Assembly: GCF_019186805.1 (NCBI RefSeq)
Contig: NZ_CP066783.1
Span: 4,663,501 to 4,727,500, forward strand
Source: Comamonas fluminis
GTDB lineage: Bacteria > Pseudomonadota > Gammaproteobacteria > Burkholderiales > Burkholderiaceae_C
Direction: 5' to 3'
DNA length: 64,000 nt
Shown here: piece after piece, positions 3,273 through 53,052 of the stretch
How the letters are laid out: the number at the start of each line of letters is the position of its first letter
How positions within the stretch are numbered: the first letter of the stretch is position 1
The notes under the pieces: generated by a model
Databases searched by the model: none
Told to the model about the DNA's origin: nothing
The model's input: the letters and a program-made list of their open reading frames with translations, nothing else
Translations under genes and position numbers: made by a program

Positions 3273-4413
<1,141 letters not shown>

Positions 4414-6690: not shown

Positions 6691-7170
6691 ATGCTGCACT
6701 TCCATCGACTCCTTTCATTGATTCTGCTTGGCTGCACTTTCATGGCGCCAGCACTGCAAGCTCATGCCCAAACCAGTTACAGCACGGGCCAGCGCCTGAG
6801 TGAAGTGCAGATTTCCGCGCTGAATGCTCAGCCGTCCATTGACATCAAAGGCCAAAACTATCGCTTGCTATCTACTGGTACTTCTTCACAAGGCCTGCCA
6901 TTTAGCCTGGTGCTTGGTCCCAACGGTGTAGTAGGACAGTCTTTTCACGAACTGCTGATCGCTGAGATTCCAGTGCAAACCGTGCGAGCACAGTTTTCCG
7001 ATGTGATCGCACAAGCAGCAAGCGTGCAATATCAGGAAGCTGCTGACATGACGATTTTGCGCTTCACAACACTGGCACAAGCGGCTGCGGCATTAAGGCA
7101 AATTCAGAAGCTAAAGTCTGGCGTGGAAGCGGGTATCCCCATCACTTTCGAACTTCCTCGGACCCGTTGA
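6691..7170 (+). CDS. small secreted protein, candidate maturation chaperone of the S8 protease
   Basis: 159 residues from ATG 6691, chosen because GGAG lies five bases upstream and a signal peptide follows directly (hydrophobic stretch, then AHA before QTSYS). An in-frame GTG at 6622 overlaps the protease stop but gives a poor N-terminus. A weaker lipobox-like LLGC is also present. I do not recognise a named domain. The C-terminal part, MTILRFTTLAQAAAALRQIQ and on, has a beta-alpha-beta pattern like subtilisin propeptides. In A. sobria the kexin-like protease ASP requires ORF2, a roughly 150-residue protein encoded immediately downstream, to mature. Order, size and secretion match, so I infer the same role; sequence homology is untested. 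Confidence 0.6.
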   Translation: MLHFHRLLSLILLGCTFMAPALQAHAQTSYSTGQRLSEVQISALNAQPSIDIKGQNYRLLSTGTSSQGLPFSLVLGPNGVVGQSFHELLIAEIPVQTVRAQFSDVIAQAASVQYQEAADMTILRFTTLAQAAAALRQIQKLKSGVEAGIPITFELPRTR

Positions 7171-7228
7171 ATCCTCTCTCCGATCTATTAAGAAAAAGCC
7201 TGTATCTTTTACTCAGTAGTCGTTGAAT

Positions 7229-7269
7229 GCTATCAAAAATGCAGCTCCGTTCCGGTGCTGCATTTTTGT
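7229..7269 (+). terminator. intrinsic terminator, overlapping a repeat tail
   Basis: AAAAATGCAGC pairs with GCTGCATTTTT around an 11-base loop, about 60 bases after the protease partner gene. GCTATCAAAAA, the end of the dispersed repeat, forms the upstream edge, as in the terminator after gap. Confidence 0.8.
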
Positions 7270-7361
7270 TTGCGTGCATCTCCACGCATATTCACTGCAA
7301 AACAAATGTCCTAAGCTAAAGTCATCTGCACCCACCAAACGCCGATTTTGCCGCCGAGCCC

Positions 7362-8864
7362 ATGTTTCTTGCCATCCCTCTTGAAAACAAGCCTTCCTGG
7401 CGCTCACCGCCGTGGATGACCGTGCTGCTGATCGTGATCAACTGCGTGATTTTCTGGGGCTGGCAAGCGCCTGAGGAAAAGGCGGTGGAACGGGCCGCTC
7501 AGGTCTATGCCAAAACGGATTTACCAGCGATTGAGCTGCCGCTGTTTCTGAACCACCTCAAGGAGCAGGTGGCACAGGGCAGTGCACGCTATGAGCGCAA
7601 TACGGTGCAGGCGGCCGAGTCTCTTTTCAAGCACAAGGCCTATGGTCAGCTTTATGCGCTGATGTGGCAGGAAAAGAAGTTTCGCCAGCAGTTGCAGGAT
7701 GGGCAGATCATCACAGCCAGCCACCCCAGACATGCCGAGTGGCAAGCGGCACGCCAGCAGTTTGCGCCGCTGGAGCCACGTAGCAGTTTTACCGAGCGCT
7801 GGTCCATGAGCTATGAGCCCGGCGCGGGCTGGCAGCCGCTGCAGGCGTTTACCTCCATTTTTCTGCATGGCAGCACCGGCCACCTGCTGGGCAATATGGT
7901 GTTTCTGTTCTTGTTTGGCTTCACACTGGAACTGGCACTGGGCGCTTTTACCTATCTGGCGTTTTATCTGATTGGCGGTGTGGGAGCCTCGTTGTTTGCT
8001 CTCATTTTTTATGCAGGCATGGGGGGTTATGGCCTGGGTGCATCAGGCGCGATTTCGGCGCTGATGGCCATGTATGCGGTGATGTACCGCATGCGGCGTA
8101 TCCGCTTTTTCTACATGCTGCTGTTCTATTTCAACTACGCCACCTGGCCAGCGCTCATCATGCTGCCAGTGTGGATGAGTGTGGAGTTGCTGCAGCATTT
8201 CTGGGGTGGCAAGCAGGTGGCCTATATGGCCCACTTTGGCGGGCTGCTGACGGGTGCCGTGCTGATGTGGGTCTATATGCGTTTGCAGACGGTACAGGCA
8301 CCGGTCAATGAAGATGAACTGGCACGCGCCACGGCCAAACCGCTGACCGATGCCATGGCGCGCGCCCAGCGCTTTACCGATGCACTGGATTTTGGGCGTG
8401 CCGCCCCTGCCTGGCGCGAAGCGGCGCGGCTGGCACCTAAAAATCTGGAGGTTCTCAAGGCCTGGTTCGAGAGTGCTCGCCATCACCCCGGCAGCGAGGA
8501 TTTTCATGGTGCTGCCCGCCTGATTTTCAAGCTACCCGCAAGTACTGATGCGGAGCGCCAGCTGCAGTTGAGCAGTTACCGAACCTACCGCCAGCGTGCC
8601 AAACCCTCTGCGCGCATGAGCGTGGACACCATGCATGGGCTGGTGCGAAATTTTGTGCGCATCGGTGCTTTGCCCGAAGCAGAAAAGCTGTGCCAGTCTC
8701 TGCACAAGGCCAGCGATCATCCGCACTGGCCCGCTACCTTGCTTTTGCTGGTAAACGGCATGGCTCAGGCGGGGCAGATACAGCAGGCAAAGTCATGGCT
8801 ACCCGCCCTGCAACAGGCTGCACCGCAAGACCCGGTGACGCGCTGGCTGGCCCAGCAGGGGTAG
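7362..8864 (+). CDS. rhomboid family intramembrane serine protease with long N-terminal insertion and C-terminal helical repeats
   Basis: 500 residues. The rhomboid core spans about 155-310: HGSTGHLLGN (His174, Asn178), catalytic Ser228 in GLGASGAIS, and His291 in AHFGG, the catalytic partner. Rhomboids cleave transmembrane substrates inside the inner membrane. Two features stand out. About 120 mostly soluble, charged residues (35-150) sit between the first membrane segment and the core. About 180 C-terminal residues rich in Ala/Leu helices look like tetratricopeptide-type repeats. The gene converges on another membrane-plus-helical-repeat gene. The start at 7362 gives a normal N-terminal segment (MFLAIPLENK) before the first helix. 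Confidence 0.88.
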   Translation: MFLAIPLENKPSWRSPPWMTVLLIVINCVIFWGWQAPEEKAVERAAQVYAKTDLPAIELPLFLNHLKEQVAQGSARYERNTVQAAESLFKHKAYGQLYALMWQEKKFRQQLQDGQIITASHPRHAEWQAARQQFAPLEPRSSFTERWSMSYEPGAGWQPLQAFTSIFLHGSTGHLLGNMVFLFLFGFTLELALGAFTYLAFYLIGGVGASLFALIFYAGMGGYGLGASGAISALMAMYAVMYRMRRIRFFYMLLFYFNYATWPALIMLPVWMSVELLQHFWGGKQVAYMAHFGGLLTGAVLMWVYMRLQTVQAPVNEDELARATAKPLTDAMARAQRFTDALDFGRAAPAWREAARLAPKNLEVLKAWFESARHHPGSEDFHGAARLIFKLPASTDAERQLQLSSYRTYRQRAKPSARMSVDTMHGLVRNFVRIGALPEAEKLCQSLHKASDHPHWPATLLLLVNGMAQAGQIQQAKSWLPALQQAAPQDPVTRWLAQQG

Positions 8865-41709: not shown

Positions 41710-42087
41710 ATGCAAGTACAGGTTCATGCCGACGATTCCATCCAGGGTGGAGAATCTCTGGCTCAATGGGCGCAGGAGGAAATCAATACCAAATTGGCCC
41801 GCCTGAAAGAGTATGTGGTGCGTGTGGAGGTCTTTCTCACGGGCGTGGACGCCCTCAAGGCCACCGGCGGCCCCGGCAAGCGATGCGTGCTGGAAACCCG
41901 GGCCACTGGCCGTCCCCCCATTGCGGTGAACGCCGAAGCCGAAAAGGTCAAAGACGCTTTCAGCGCCGCGATTGAAAAGCTCAAACGTGCGGTGGAAACC
42001 GACCTGGACAAGGTCAAGGACAAGAATCTGCGCGAGAGCGTTCGGGGTGTGGATGACCCCAGTGCGGAGAACGCAGCGACGGCCTGA
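41710..42087 (+). CDS. HPF/RaiA-like ribosome-associated protein
   Basis: 125 residues. MQVQVHADDSIQGGESLAQWAQEEINTKLARLKEYVVRVEVFL matches the start of an S30AE-type domain, followed by CVLETRATGRPPIAV and a charged helix. It is more diverged than the hpf at 32992, and such second copies occur in Comamonadaceae. A strong AGGAGG lies seven bases upstream and a terminator follows, so it is expressed as a single gene. Its ribosome role is inferred. Confidence 0.75.
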   Translation: MQVQVHADDSIQGGESLAQWAQEEINTKLARLKEYVVRVEVFLTGVDALKATGGPGKRCVLETRATGRPPIAVNAEAEKVKDAFSAAIEKLKRAVETDLDKVKDKNLRESVRGVDDPSAENAATA

Positions 42088-42225: not shown

Positions 42226-42252
42226 TTATTCTTGTGAGTTTGCTTATTTCAG

Positions 42253-42320
42253 AGGCCGGGTCTCGCCCCGGCAGGCGACCTTCTTTTCTTGCTCGTGCAA
42301 GCAAAGAAGGCAAAAGAACA
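42253..42320 (+). repeat. inverted element, left copy (two hairpins)
   Basis: GCCGGG/CCCGGC (42255-42272), then CCTTCTTTTCTTGC (42279-42292) and GCAAGCAAAGAAGG (42297-42310) around TCGT, then AAAAGAACAC. The right copy at 42843-42907 is the same order on the opposite strand. Confidence 0.7.
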
Positions 42321-42577
42321 CGCCCCGGATGTCTGCGTCCCTACGCTACGTTTCACTTCGCTACGGGCAAACCTGCGTCACGCAATTCATTCTGCGGTGC
42401 CGCCGAACTCGCTACGCGGCACGCCGCTGCGCTCAGACAAGCGGCGGCAAGTCAGTTCACGAAGCATTGGCACTCTTCGGTGCCAATGCCCGCAGCCTGA
42501 ACCGCGTGCCACAGGCGCTGACACACGGGTGGATGCGGGCACGGACGGCCTGCAAGACTTGTGAAGAAATGAGCTTC

Positions 42578-42611
42578 TAGCGCTTATCCAGATTGCGGTA
42601 GCAGCTATCAA
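42578..42611 (+). repeat. dispersed repeat copy
   Basis: TAGCGCTTATC, CAGAT, TGCGGTAGCAGCTATCAA; a direct copy of the unit at 42190. Confidence 0.7.
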
Positions 42612-42842
42612 TTCTGAAAGAAGCTATCCCGCATTTGGTATTGCCCCTTGTGCCCACGCCTGCGACGGCAAGTTCTTGGGGCTGGCAGTTGCACCGCAGA
42701 GTGCAACTGCATCGTCAACATATTTGCGGCAACTGTTTGAACGGAGAGCGAAGCTCGAAGTGAGTTTTGCCGCACAGCCTCAAGAGCTTGGCGGCGTAGG
42801 TTGCCCGCAGGCGAAGCCGGAGGGTCGGGGGAAGTAGGGGCT

Positions 42843-42907
42843 GGTGTTCTTTGCCTACTTTCTTGCACCAGCAAGAAAGTAGGTCGGCTGGCGGGCCGAG
42901 ACCCGCC
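42843..42907 (-). repeat. inverted element, right copy (two hairpins)
   Basis: CCTACTTTCTTGC (42854-42866) and GCAAGAAAGTAGG (42871-42883) form a 13-base perfect stem around ACCA; GGCGGG/CCCGCC (42890-42907) is the second hairpin. It is the reverse-strand counterpart of 42253-42320. Confidence 0.75.
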
Positions 42908-43046
42908 CTCTATCCGCGAATCAAGCATGGTGCTCAAATCAGCCTGTAGCCCGAATAAATCATTCACAAGTAGCCATCAAACAAATTTTGTATTGTCATC
43001 TGCGATAAAAACAAGCTCTTCTCCAGTGAATCAAACGCGCAAATTT

Positions 43047-44252
43047 TTATGCTTGAATATCGATCTTTATCATCGACCCTTTCACAATTTCCATATCTTG
43101 CTGAGTATAGATAATTCTAGATTTTTCTTGATTATTTGCATACGCTGAATTTAGCCTTCTTTTGATATGTGATTCTGGCAATCTTTGATGGTCAAATATA
43201 TCTGATTGAATAATTTCATTTGCAACTTCAAAAGAACTAATTTTTTTGAACTGCTGAAATTTCTCTTCTTCCATATTGGCTTTAGCCGTCGCCTCTCTCA
43301 GTTGCTGCTCCTTTATCAGAATCTCCATTTTGTGCATCTCTTTCTTATGCTGCACATCCACTTGGGTCTGCCAAAGTGTAGCGGCCCCTTGAAATATTGC
43401 AAGAAGCGGGCTATTTTTTTGAGCCGACTTTAACTCTAAACCACCTCCAACAGTTTTATTAACTAGTGATCGCGATAGAATTCTTATATAGCCATCACCA
43501 ACTCTTATATATACAACTGGTCTGGTTGTATGATTAAATATTTCAAAAAATACCCCCAACTCTTTTTGATATTTTTTATCTTCTTTTTTGGTAGAAAAAA
43601 GCACCCTTTCAAGAAGAGCATCATCGAAATTTTCAATCTCCTTTAGAATATTAAGACTTTTGTTTTGTTTTTCTTTTATCTTTGACAGTTTTGCCGTGAT
43701 GTCCGACTCTTCTATTGGAGTTCTATCAGCGTAGTGTTTTGAATATTTTTTGTGATATTGCTCAGAAAACTTAATTGCTGTCGTTATTAAATACTGCTCC
43801 GCATGTAGATCACTCTTTTCGCTTTGAATTTTCAAAGCATTCACCAAATATGAAATTCCGAGTGGCCGAAATTTTCTGGAGTGCAATAATGAATTAACTC
43901 CATAAAAATTCTCATACAGAAAATTTATATTGCGGGTTTTTATACTTGGAACGAGAGAGTGCGGCTTCCCTATAGGGTAAAAATATCTTGCAGCCTCAAA
44001 CTCAGGCAATAAATCAAGCTTAGCATACCGCCTATTAAGTGGAAGTGATCCTTCGGATATGATTATATCCTTTGGACTTATTCCCCTTAGTAAAGCTGAC
44101 GATATTGAATTCAAAAGATCATTTTTATAATAAACTGTATTGAACTGATTAAAGAACCCTGCAATTTCCCAAGGAAGTAACCGATCTTCACTCCGCTGCT
44201 TAAAAGTAACTTGAAAAAGGGATGAAGATTTATAATCGTAATCATCAAACAT
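43047..44252 (-). CDS. AT-rich hypothetical protein downstream of the NERD helicase
   Basis: 401 residues, base composition well below the GC level of its neighbours, so probably acquired. It starts MFDDYDYKSSSLFQVTFKQR. Around residues 300-345 a mostly hydrophobic stretch (LLAIFQGAATLWQTQVDV) passes into a charged, coiled-coil-like helix (KEMHKMEILIKEQQLREA). No catalytic motif, signal peptide or clear membrane span is seen and I recognise no family. It begins 23 bases after the helicase stop on the same strand, suggesting one transcription unit. Role unknown; a partner in genome defence is speculation from context. Confidence 0.75.
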   Translation of the reverse strand: MFDDYDYKSSSLFQVTFKQRSEDRLLPWEIAGFFNQFNTVYYKNDLLNSISSALLRGISPKDIIISEGSLPLNRRYAKLDLLPEFEAARYFYPIGKPHSLVPSIKTRNINFLYENFYGVNSLLHSRKFRPLGISYLVNALKIQSEKSDLHAEQYLITTAIKFSEQYHKKYSKHYADRTPIEESDITAKLSKIKEKQNKSLNILKEIENFDDALLERVLFSTKKEDKKYQKELGVFFEIFNHTTRPVVYIRVGDGYIRILSRSLVNKTVGGGLELKSAQKNSPLLAIFQGAATLWQTQVDVQHKKEMHKMEILIKEQQLREATAKANMEEEKFQQFKKISSFEVANEIIQSDIFDHQRLPESHIKRRLNSAYANNQEKSRIIYTQQDMEIVKGSMIKIDIQA

Positions 44253-44275
44253 AATTCTCTATCCAATTAAATTTT

Positions 44276-46090
44276 CTATTTCAAAGAAATCATCAATTTT
44301 TGCGTAGTTCGTGTGGCTGCTACATAAATTAGGCGAGCCTCCAACGCTGAATCCTTCTCCACATCCTTGGCCTTGCGCTCTTCCTCCGAAGTAACAACAG
44401 CCACTACCGGCCACTCCAGCCCCTTGCTCGCATGCATGGTCATGAGCTTGATGGAGTCTTCCTCGGGCTTGAACTGGCCTGCCTTTTTCCGCATGCGGTA
44501 GGGCAAGCGCTTGCGCTGCAGGGCGTCGGCGCAGAGTTCCATTTCGTCGTAGTGGCGGCACAGCACGGCCATTTCGCCCCAGGCGTGGCCTTGGGCGTGC
44601 TGGTCGGCCAGCAGCTCGGCCACGCGGGCGGCGCGTTCGGGCAGGGTTGGCAGGTCGATGACGATGGGCTCGGGGCCTTCGCGGCCGCAGCTCAGGGGTT
44701 TGAGCAGCGGGATGCTGTCTTCGTCCTTGGCGTCTTCGGGCATGAGCATGTCGCCCGCCACGCGGTGGGCCAGTTGCAGTATCTGGCGCGTGTTGCGGTA
44801 GTTGATCTTGAGGATGGTGGTGCGGCCAGATGCCTGTATGCCCACGCTTTTGAGGCTGAAGTTGCGCTTCTGGCCCCGGTCGTAAATGCTTTGTGCATCG
44901 TCATAGAGCAACAGCAGGCTGTTGGTGCTCGGGTCCACCATCTGGGTGACCAGGCGCAGCCATTCGGGCGCAAAGTCGTGGCCTTCGTCGATGAGGATGG
45001 CGTGGTACTGGCCTGCGGGAATGTGTTTGTTGTCCACGCCGGTGATGACGCACTGCACATATTCGGCCATGAGCTTGTCCACGGGCCAGCGCTGGGTGTC
45101 TTCGGGCAGCAGGTTGTAGGCCACCAGCTGGTCGCGGCACCATTTGTGGAAGTGGCGCACATGCACGCGGTCTTGCAGGCCCTTGGCTTCCATGCTGGCG
45201 GCCAGTTTGACGCCCAGTGGCTCGTTGTAGCAAAGCACGAGGATGGGTTTGCTGCCCGGCCCTTGCGTCTGCGCCAGGTGTTCGGCACGGTAGCCGAGGA
45301 TCATGGTCTTGCCCGAGCCCGCCACGCCGTGGATGACGCGGTGGCCGTCCCCCAATGACCGCGCCAGTTGCTCTTGCTGCAGGTCCATCACACGCATGAT
45401 GTCGGGCAGTTCGTCTTCGTCCGGCTCCTGGCCTTCACCAAACAGGTTTTGCTGCCGGGGCACGCGCACTTCGGGGAAGAGTATCCAGCGGATGCGGTCG
45501 AGCTGGGGCAGGGTGATGGCGCGGCCAAAGCTGTGGGTAAACATGTCCCACAGCCGCTGCTGAAAGGCTTCGGCATCGACGGCATCGGTCATTTCGTCCT
45601 GGCAGATGACGAGGTGGGCGGGCAGCGCATCGCCCAGCCCCGCTGCATCAAACTGCTTGCGCGTGATGCGCGTGAAGACCACGCCGTGGCCCCAGGGAAA
45701 GGCCAGTTTGCCTTGGTGGGGGCCGTCGCCCTGCACCAGTTGCACGTCGCGCTCCAGCGCGTTGATGACCTGAATGGCGCAGTGGCGGGCCTGCTGCAGC
45801 GGGCTCATCACCACCTTGGGCTGGCTGGTGCCGCTGTCCAGAATCTCGAAATATTCGCGCGTGGCCTTGCGAATGGTGTCCAGATGCCAGTCCTTGGTCT
45901 CCAGAATCAGCGCGCCCCGGCGCGGGTGCACCACCACAAAATCAGGCCGCGTCTGCTTGGGGCCAATAGGCACATCCCACCACAGCAGATAGTCGTCTTC
46001 CAGCTTTTGCTGCAGACGCTCCGCCAATCGTCGCTCTCCACTGGTCATGCGCCCCGCGCAACTGCCCAGCGCGGGTATGAGTACCGCCAT
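44276..46090 (-). CDS. NERD nuclease-domain protein with UvrD-like helicase
   Basis: 604 residues. The NERD domain is N-terminal: GERRLAERLQQ, then RPDFVVVHPRRGALILETKDW with Asp50, Glu64 and Lys66, the D-ExK nuclease pattern. A superfamily 1 helicase follows: Walker A GVAGSGKT (255-262), Walker B IDEGH (368-371), NYRNTRQ, TMHASKGLEWPVV and YVAATRT. Such fusions are predicted DNA-processing enzymes, sometimes found in defence loci. ATG 46090 is preferred (GGAGGGGGAGG upstream); a TTG at 46105 is also in frame. GC content falls near its 3' end. It is the first gene of the pair. Confidence 0.88.
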   Translation of the reverse strand: MAVLIPALGSCAGRMTSGERRLAERLQQKLEDDYLLWWDVPIGPKQTRPDFVVVHPRRGALILETKDWHLDTIRKATREYFEILDSGTSQPKVVMSPLQQARHCAIQVINALERDVQLVQGDGPHQGKLAFPWGHGVVFTRITRKQFDAAGLGDALPAHLVICQDEMTDAVDAEAFQQRLWDMFTHSFGRAITLPQLDRIRWILFPEVRVPRQQNLFGEGQEPDEDELPDIMRVMDLQQEQLARSLGDGHRVIHGVAGSGKTMILGYRAEHLAQTQGPGSKPILVLCYNEPLGVKLAASMEAKGLQDRVHVRHFHKWCRDQLVAYNLLPEDTQRWPVDKLMAEYVQCVITGVDNKHIPAGQYHAILIDEGHDFAPEWLRLVTQMVDPSTNSLLLLYDDAQSIYDRGQKRNFSLKSVGIQASGRTTILKINYRNTRQILQLAHRVAGDMLMPEDAKDEDSIPLLKPLSCGREGPEPIVIDLPTLPERAARVAELLADQHAQGHAWGEMAVLCRHYDEMELCADALQRKRLPYRMRKKAGQFKPEEDSIKLMTMHASKGLEWPVVAVVTSEEERKAKDVEKDSALEARLIYVAATRTTQKLMISLK

Positions 46091-46299
46091 TGCCTCCCCC
46101 TCCAACCTGTATCTTCATGTTTCAAGGATGGATTGGTTATAGCCGATGTGACCTGCCGCAGTCTTGCAGGCCGCGCAAAGCTTTATGGTGCGTTTGCGGG
46201 ATGTGGGGTGGAGGGATTGCTGTGTATCTGTGGGTGGGGCCTGGCTTTTGGCTGGCTCATCAAGAATCTGGCTTCAATGATGAATTCATAGGCATACAA

Positions 46300-46340
46300 G
46301 GCTATACCCTTGGTATATCAAGCGTGGTTAGCTATCAAAT
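46300..46340 (+). repeat. dispersed repeat copy, diverged
   Basis: GGCTATACCCTTGGTATATC then AAGCGTGGTTAGCTATCAAAT; the second half matches the usual repeat end. It lies just before the 46365 palindrome, as copies lie near the palindrome on the other side. Confidence 0.55.
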
Positions 46341-46364
46341 TAGATGCAACCGCTTGCGACAGAG

Positions 46365-46382
46365 GGCGGGCCGAGACCCGCC
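46365..46382. repeat. 18-base palindrome, second flank of the helicase unit
   Basis: GGCGGG, CCGAGA, CCCGCC, identical over 18 bases to 42890-42907 and in the same orientation. Confidence 0.8.
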
Positions 46383-46458
46383 TTCTGACCAAAGCAAAGA
46401 CATATCGCCAGATAGAAAGATGGCCCCCGCAAGCCTTCTTCCTGCTCGTTTCAAACGC

Positions 46459-52026: not shown

Positions 52027-52053
52027 ATCAAGCGCTACCTGCTATCAATATTC
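52027..52053 (+). repeat. dispersed repeat copy, short
   Basis: CATCAAGCGCTACCTGCTATCAATA, the second half of the usual unit, between convergent genes. Confidence 0.5.
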
Positions 52054-53052
52054 TAGGCAGATCTTCCCAAAATGCTTGCCAGCCGCTTGGTGGGCAAAGG
52101 CCTCGGCCATGCGCTCCAGCGGGTAGTGGCTGTCGATCACCGGCTTCCAGCCAAACAGCTCCAGCGCGCGCACCATGTCTTGTTGCTGCTCGCGGCTACC
52201 GACGATCAGGCCCTTCAGGGTTTGCTGTTTGCGCATCAGCTCCACGGTGGGCACAGCGCCCGCAAAGCCGGTCAGCACGCCAATCAGCGCGATATGGCCG
52301 CCGGGCGCGCAGGCGCGGATGGACTGGGGCAGCGTGCCGGGGCCGCCCACTTCGACCACGATGTTGGCACCACGCCCGCCGGTGGCAGCCAGCACGGCGT
52401 CGCCCCATTCAGGCTGGTCTTTGTAGTTGATAACGGTGTCGGCACCCAGGGCCTTCAGTTGCTCGGCCTTGGCAGCGCTGCTGGTGGTAGCGATGACCTT
52501 GGCGCCCATGCTTTTGGCCATTTGCAGCGCAAAGATGGAGACGCCACCCGTGCCCAGCACCAGCACGGTGTCGCCGGCCTGCAGCTTTCCATCCACCACC
52601 AGTGCGCGCCAGGCGGTCAGGCCGGCGGTGGTCAGCGTGGCGGCTTCGGCATGGCTCCAGCCCTGGGGAGCGTGGGTGAAGCTGGTGGCGGGCAAGGTGA
52701 TGGATTCGCGGGCAAAGCCGTCCACGCCATCGCCGGGCACCAGCTGAAAGTCGGTGGGCACGTTGCTGCCGGACTGCCACTGCGGAAAGAAGGTGGACAC
52801 CACGGCATCGCCCACGGCAAATTCCGTCACGCCCGCGCCCACGGCGGTGACCACGCCTGCGCCATCGGCCATGGGAATGCGGCCATCGGCGGCTGCGCCG
52901 GGGCGCGAGACCACGGCCAAGTCGTGAAAGTTGAGCGAGCTGGCGTGAATGCGCACCTGAATCTGCCCCGCCCCGGGCGCGGCGGCTGTGGGCAGCTCTG
53001 CCAATTTCAGGTTTTCCAGACCGCCGGGGGCGGCAAGTTGCATGGCTTTCAT
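52045..53052 (-). CDS. MDR-type NAD(P)-dependent alcohol dehydrogenase / quinone oxidoreductase
   Basis: 335 residues. The cofactor motif GTGGVSIFALQMAKSMGAKVIATTSS and the GRANIVVEVGGPGTLPQS block identify the medium-chain dehydrogenase superfamily. The catalytic-zinc ligands of classic ADHs are not evident (DLAVVSRPG where Cys is expected), so a zinc-independent quinone reductase type is likely. AAGGA lies before ATG 53052. An HxlR regulator is divergent, the usual arrangement for redox-responsive dehydrogenases. Confidence 0.88.
   Translation of the reverse strand: MKAMQLAAPGGLENLKLAELPTAAAPGAGQIQVRIHASSLNFHDLAVVSRPGAAADGRIPMADGAGVVTAVGAGVTEFAVGDAVVSTFFPQWQSGSNVPTDFQLVPGDGVDGFARESITLPATSFTHAPQGWSHAEAATLTTAGLTAWRALVVDGKLQAGDTVLVLGTGGVSIFALQMAKSMGAKVIATTSSAAKAEQLKALGADTVINYKDQPEWGDAVLAATGGRGANIVVEVGGPGTLPQSIRACAPGGHIALIGVLTGFAGAVPTVELMRKQQTLKGLIVGSREQQQDMVRALELFGWKPVIDSHYPLERMAEAFAHQAAGKHFGKICLEY

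Follow-up and report, generated by a model that had tools for sequence, protein, structure and literature searches.

A candidate defence slot anchored by a NERD nuclease-helicase gene in Comamonas, probably refilled by homologous recombination and now holding a rare candidate stand-alone gene

Does a nuclease-helicase gene that lies directly in front of an AT-rich gene of no known family form a defence system with it, or does it mark a place at which defence genes come and go? The question is raised by a 64,000-nucleotide stretch of the Comamonas fluminis genome (NZ_CP066783.1, positions 4,663,501 to 4,727,500; hereafter the window), in which a gene for a NERD nuclease and UvrD-type superfamily 1 helicase (44276-46090, minus strand) is followed by a gene of 401 codons (43047-44252, minus strand; hereafter the partner). 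A sequence-only reading had proposed the two as a candidate two-gene system. In related genomes, different cargos occupy one orthologous locus behind the helicase, these loci share a breakpoint at helicase motif VI, the site is also found empty, and there are many known defence genes among the cargos. From these sequence comparisons we consider it probable (roughly 70%) that the conserved helicase gene anchors a defence slot that is refilled by homologous recombination, and that this slot presently holds a rare candidate stand-alone defence gene.

The helicase gene encodes 604 residues from the ATG at 46090, just 5' of which lies a GGAGG-like motif; its open reading frame (44276-46105, minus strand) gives 609 residues with the TTG start at 46105. 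The protein matches the Pfam families NERD (5.6e-12), UvrD_C (1.8e-20) and UvrD-helicase (1e-8), carries the motifs GVAGSGKT, DEGH and YVAATR, and matches the PADLOC model C3a187 (NERD+UvrD) at E=1.8e-162 over model positions 1-542 of 559. The partner follows on the same strand 23 bases after the helicase stop. Its guanine-plus-cytosine content (GC) is 0.35, against 0.63 for the helicase gene, and the kilobase 43001-44000 (GC 0.348) is the only one of 64 below 0.5 in a window that lies mostly between 0.53 and 0.67. The best match of the partner across Pfam, PADLOC, NCBIfam and PHROGs has E=0.12. The sequence-only reading had described the same gene pair, the low GC of the partner and its lack of a known family, with repeat mosaics and identical palindromes on both sides; open reading frames, database scans and the sequence itself bear out all of these.

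The two genes differ sharply in their distribution. Among the 53 genomes of the genus (the window genome included; the others are called congeners here) the helicase is found in 24, at 66-91% identity, whereas the partner is found in one, and in one of 299 genomes of the family. The congener helicase of G317 is split in two frames and that of G310 is matched over residues 6-581 only. We read 20 of the 23 congener helicase loci with flanks of about 8 kb at most (less in L042, L050 and L058, where contigs end); one more, L137, was added later. Eleven of the 20 have AT-rich genes (GC 0.31-0.38) behind the helicase stop, all on the helicase strand (L039, L040, L041, L042, L043, L044, L045, L047, L049, L054 and L055). 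These cargos are of nine kinds rather than 11 because L040 and L041 share a cargo, as do L043 and L044. In L057, AT-rich genes lie 1.7 kb downstream on the other strand and none is directly behind the helicase.

The cargo differs even where the locus is the same. In nine congeners the helicase lies 0.3-1.1 kb from the same gene, which we take to encode an oxidoreductase; in the window this gene (52048-53052, minus strand) is four genes away from the helicase. The other flank is a gene that is presumably hpf (41710-42087, plus strand) in the window and, on the same side, in L041, L044 and L049, and these four loci hold four different cargos. In L039, L042, L043 and L047 it is a PAS-type gene, again with four different cargos in four loci, and the cargo of L043 resembles that of L044 across the two flank groups. 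L040 and L046 have the oxidoreductase flank only, with neither hpf nor the PAS-type gene within the stretch read, and the slot of L046 is empty of cargo. The flanks of one orthologous site are thus conserved while its cargo differs, which is the pattern of a defence hotspot. Eight congener loci without the helicase complete the comparison: in five of them the oxidoreductase gene lies beside the PAS-type gene with no helicase and no cargo, and in the other three the PAS-type gene is absent from the stretch read.

Comparison of the window with the nine congeners by BLASTN places the edges of the exchanged piece to within a few bases, as these edges are the ends of local alignments. Homology ends at 44319 in six congeners (L040, L041, L042, L044, L047 and L049). 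In two others it extends to 44303-44310 and in the remaining one to 44283; beyond the gap it resumes at 42938 or lower, inside a dispersed repeat block. Position 44319 falls at the helicase motif VI codons (YVA.TR). The codons past this motif vary with the cargo and are shared by congeners that have the same cargo; those of the empty L046 and of L047 are also alike. Since homology stops at 44319 and resumes at or below 42938, the exchanged piece in the window spans about 42939-44318 and comprises approximately the last 13 helicase codons, the stop and the partner gene. In the genus, the cassette would thus also supply the last few codons of the helicase.

The far edge of the slot is a dispersed mosaic repeat block (42250-42938), matched at this place by L039, L042 and L047. 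The block (42240-42950) recurs over at least 300 bp at 10 or more other places in its own genome, a lower bound because 40 of 91 candidates were scored. A short remnant of the same repeat family lies upstream of the helicase (46295-46398; repeats D1, D4 and I2). One 18-base palindromic word occurs at both 42890 and 46365, and comparison of the window's repeats gives two direct copies of the palindromic GGCGGGCCGAGACCCGCC element there (42890-42911 and 46365-46386); additional direct and inverted repeats flank the gene pair. Among the occupied congener sites, L039 and L042 alone have repeat copies in direct orientation on both sides of helicase and cargo, the downstream copy of L043 is partial, and L047 has two copies downstream and a 55-bp stub upstream. 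Among the empty sites, the gap is filled by one copy of about 0.65 kb in L145, L146 and L149, by pieces in L147 and by almost none in L148. This partial pattern at occupied and empty sites lends partial support to the idea that the whole unit may be gained or lost by recombination between repeats.

Beyond the genus, the helicase is matched at E<=1e-90 in 83 of 399 genomes of the family and in 15 of 369 genomes of the class. We added 80 loci (one congener and, from outside the genus, 66 of the 85 family matches together with the 13 class matches) and surveyed GC at 97 of 101 loci, with L066, L087, L126 and L131 dropped for short sequence. An 800-bp stretch more than 0.1 below the GC of the helicase was counted as low. 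Such a stretch lies downstream of the helicase in 32 of the 97 loci and upstream in none. For the 20 congener loci, 10 slots are low in GC compared with 13 of 278 background windows (p=1e-7). In 30 of the 32 loci the first low-GC gene shares the strand of the helicase, at a median gap of 24 nt, and 27 of the 30 gaps lie within -35 to 127 nt. Neighbouring genes are diverse on both sides (91 clusters for 101 genes upstream, 165 clusters for 189 genes downstream). As upstream neighbours are equally diverse, gene diversity alone is no evidence, and the argument rests on the GC asymmetry, the defence content and the comparison at the same locus. On the helicase tree, the cargo shared by L040 and L041 requires two changes, also when only well-supported branches are considered. 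The SIR2-HerA cargo described below requires two changes on the best tree, and well-supported branches force one only. Sister helicases carry different cargo in L076 (Old) and L081 (SIR2-HerA), as well as in L092 and L096. A further pair, L070 and L073, has nearly identical helicases and different downstream genes.

Known defence systems occur among the cargos, mostly in other genera of the family. Thirty cargo genes were scanned with Pfam, 20 singly with PADLOC, and 68 first downstream genes jointly with PADLOC. The strongest matches are PDC-S06 (L096, 2.2e-275), Old (L076, 4.4e-186), PD-T4-1 (L094, 2.1e-171), SIR2 (2.5e-157) together with HerA (4.1e-149) in L063, with relatives in L065, L071 and L081, ApeA (L083, 1e-99), and a Lamassu cargo in L085 with LmuA (2.5e-41) and LmuB (1.7e-89). 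Others are a type II methylase (L102, 2.4e-41), an NsnB/AriA-type ATPase (L055, 2e-33), an AriA-type ATPase (6e-19) with a weak OLD TOPRIM match (L041), AAA_21 with DUF4435/AriB (L049, 2.6e-7) and REase_II on a HATPase protein (L132, 3.3e-6). The L099 cargo has NACHT and SNaCT5 in Pfam and matches no PADLOC family, and the L092 cargo has no family in the Pfam scan.

Several observations weigh against a defence slot fixed to the helicase. In nine of the 20 congener loci the helicase lacks an AT-rich gene immediately downstream, and the share of low-GC slots varies with helicase identity: they are found in 12 of 23 loci at 69% or above (window included), in 16 of 45 at 58-69% and in only 4 of 29 among distant helicases below 58%. 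None of six plasmid-collection regions, with helicases 40-49% identical, has a GC drop. Two of the 32 low-GC slots have cargo on the opposite strand (L073 and L093). The cargos scanned singly were mostly picked for AT-rich slots, and not all of them are recognizable as defence genes: the cargos of L042 (first gene), L047, L054 and L062 have no match in Pfam or PADLOC, that of L089 is a GIY-YIG gene without a PADLOC match, that of L045 is a radical SAM gene with a weak one (1.6e-4), and L043 and L044 carry a transglycosylase-like gene (the second gene in L044). At 1e-8 the 68 downstream genes match 256 PADLOC families and 69 upstream genes match 33, a contrast inflated by counting families, as many models describe one system. 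The contrast is raised further by L040, for which the downstream gene taken is the cargo behind an inserted transposase gene, not the transposase itself. Upstream genes also match PADLOC (SoFic, PDC-S02, PD_DExK and mad2). The full two-sided repeat arrangement is confined to two congener loci, and the tight co-direction of the cargos exceeds what a passive hotspot requires.

This last point bears on an alternative in which the NERD-helicase is the shared front end of a modular system, as a sensor or a DNA processor, and the cassettes are interchangeable effectors whose exchange re-arms one machine, much as GajB works with GajA. Recombination at motif VI would then swap the last strand of the helicase together with an effector of Lamassu, SIR2, NLR or orphan type, each working with the same helicase. 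Such a system would account for the placement of low-GC cargos on the helicase strand in 30 of 32 cases at a median gap of 24 nt, for the last helicase residues provided by the cassettes, and for the resemblance of AAA/OLD-type cargos to GajA partners. However, SIR2-HerA, Lamassu, ApeA, Old and PD-T4-1 are complete systems on their own, the helicase is missing from five of the six genomes that have partner relatives, and in nine of the 20 congener loci no cargo immediately follows the helicase. We regard a modular system as unlikely, though the best of the alternatives.

The partner family itself points away from a fixed association with the helicase. A profile search that scored the 7,999 candidates with the most words in common found at least 74 proteins at E<=0.01, and in none of them is there a Pfam domain. 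Invariant residues concentrate at 3-123 and 235-282, giving a layout in which a conserved block at the N terminus (about 1-123) and another at about 235-282 precede a helical tail. No hydrophobic stretch pointing to a membrane span was seen in the 12 family members checked, nothing credible was found among PDB sequences, and plasmids and phages gave no match. Compared by hhalign with the 189 neighbouring genes, the partner profile gave nothing above 7.9% except the partner itself. A distant relative, P0074 (437 residues; hhalign E=5.9e-19), shares the N-terminal and central blocks and diverges in its C-terminal part.

Relatives of the partner were read at seven loci in six named genomes. In L007 and L008 only a short end of the gene is present, and the sequences in L005 and L008 may belong to a single gene in two pieces. 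The helicase was seen at none of the seven loci; in four of them (L004, L005, L007 and L008) the contig ends a short way from the gene. At E<=1e-40 the helicase has no match in five of the six genomes. In the remaining one, a Chitinibacter, a helicase fragment that covers about residues 4-179 and contains a stop lies close to where a third contig ends; partner relative and fragment each lie at contig ends, so their linkage is not readable. Among the neighbours of the relatives are a Type ISP methylase and a C5-methylase, a NucS-like nuclease, a weak HNH match, Schlafen-type helicases and an FRG protein. In L003, from a Pseudomonas, the relative follows genes that we take from their sequences to be pheS, pheT, ihfA and a merR gene, and within that genus the partner is found in one of 398 genomes, that of L003 itself. 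In the part of PMC10250203 available, pheS-pheT-ihfA-merR is given as the left flank of cDHS1; the agreement with L003 covers the left flank only. As partner relatives lie near defence-type genes and without the helicase, the family appears, judging from these neighbourhoods, to travel among defence-type loci by itself.

These results decide against a strict two-gene system of helicase and 401-residue protein, which we now consider very improbable. The two genes are adjacent, on the same strand and 23 bases apart, and Chitinibacter has traces of both; the gene neighbourhoods of helicase and partner nevertheless both stand against it, since congener helicases bear other cargos and the helicase was seen at none of the seven loci with a partner relative, four of them cut short. 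The sequence-only reading had named a solitary core helicase, or partner homologues apart from it, as findings that would count against the pair: the helicase is not core (24 of 53 genomes), and the relatives are not seen beside it (0 of 7 loci, four of them cut). Its suggestion of a defence context fares better, as known anti-phage genes fill the slot in relatives and the partner's own relatives sit among restriction and defence-type genes; conserved co-occurrence with the helicase is not found. Site-specific integration at the helicase 3' end, by a small element that regenerates the end of the gene with an integrase in trans, as elements at tRNA genes do, could explain the single shared breakpoint in the final codons. 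These codons vary with cargo, a variation that homologous recombination also explains; no integrase was found among the congener cassette genes scanned and the far edge is a long dispersed repeat, leaving little room for site-specific integration.

We therefore return to the helicase-anchored slot and what it would involve. The helicase 3' end would be the fixed edge, with the helicase as conserved anchor, and many genomes hold one AT-rich cassette of one or two genes, rarely three, close behind it and nearly always on its strand. Homologous recombination would exchange the cargo, one arm lying in the helicase coding sequence and the other in the dispersed repeat. The 401-residue protein is most likely a single-gene defence protein, sensor plus effector, that probably acts by abortive infection; it is probably co-transcribed with the helicase and would not depend on it. 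The helicase probably acts alone as a DNA-end-processing nuclease-helicase.

A search by title and abstract, with most subscription papers outside its scope, found no published description of a slot anchored by a NERD-helicase. The closest likeness is to cDHS1 and cDHS2 of Pseudomonas aeruginosa, which, in the part of PMC10250203 available, have fixed flank genes, hypervariable cargo rich in anti-phage genes, cargo GC below that of the chromosome and no single mobile element type, and for which recombination via the conserved flanks is suggested. The same source gives cDHS1 a length of 1-224 kb, with a median of 26 kb, and places it between core genes; in contrast, the slot described here has one edge within the coding end of a nuclease-helicase gene, a single small co-directional cassette makes up its cargo, and the gene that anchors it comes and goes as well. 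The defence-island hotspots of E. coli, as far as the available part of PMC10121019 describes them, likewise combine fixed places, some occupied and some empty, with a varied defensive cargo; among the congener cassette genes scanned here, by contrast, no integrase was found. Gabija (the OLD-type nuclease GajA and the UvrD helicase GajB) also places a UvrD-family helicase gene beside a defence gene, and AAA/OLD cargo occurs in L041 and L076. Membership of Gabija was rejected: GajB models match the window helicase partially (best 3e-21, against 1.8e-162 for C3a187), and the partner has no AAA, OLD or TOPRIM match. The C3a187 model fits the helicase nearly end to end; as far as seen it describes the helicase only, with no partner and no variable slot. 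We take its name to be tied to reverse transcriptase systems, and the window helicase presumably resembles Nhi-like nuclease-helicase immunity. NERD is listed for Nhi-like in the available part of PMC10952713.

A fixed, readable edge would simplify the discovery of cargo, in that an AT-rich gene directly behind the helicase becomes a defence candidate. Besides known systems, the slot offers several unnamed candidates of one or two genes, namely the 401-residue family and the cargos of L042, L047, L054 and L062. It also makes testable whether the helicase is a mere landing mark or the working partner of many effectors.

A few minor observations concern individual loci. In L040 a transposase gene that we take to be IS30-like (6831-7868) lies between helicase and cargo. 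The L049 helicase gene is broken into two frames close to the 3' end, with the AAA and DUF4435 cargo frames open. The helicase match of L137 stops at residue 578 and the frame continues for 297 residues, a possible helicase-cargo fusion. Behind the helicases of L107, L108 and L109 (51-54% identity) lie related genes of about 504 codons and normal GC, PhaC-like in L108, which represent an ordinary stable neighbour. The plasmid-collection regions (L139-L144) come from Vibrio, Escherichia, Pantoea, Nostoc and Klebsiella records and have NERD-helicases without a low-GC follower; the Pantoea NERD-helicase gene overlaps a gene with a VasL domain at the end of a type VI secretion cluster. Finally, elsewhere in the window's own genome a 223-residue gene of GC 0.33 (L157, G000:C2:233000-239000, positions 3681-4352) lies beside two tandem copies of the repeat block, and L158 (309 residues, GC 0.45) and L159 (202 residues, GC 0.46) resemble this arrangement, suggesting that repeat blocks may border further cassettes there.

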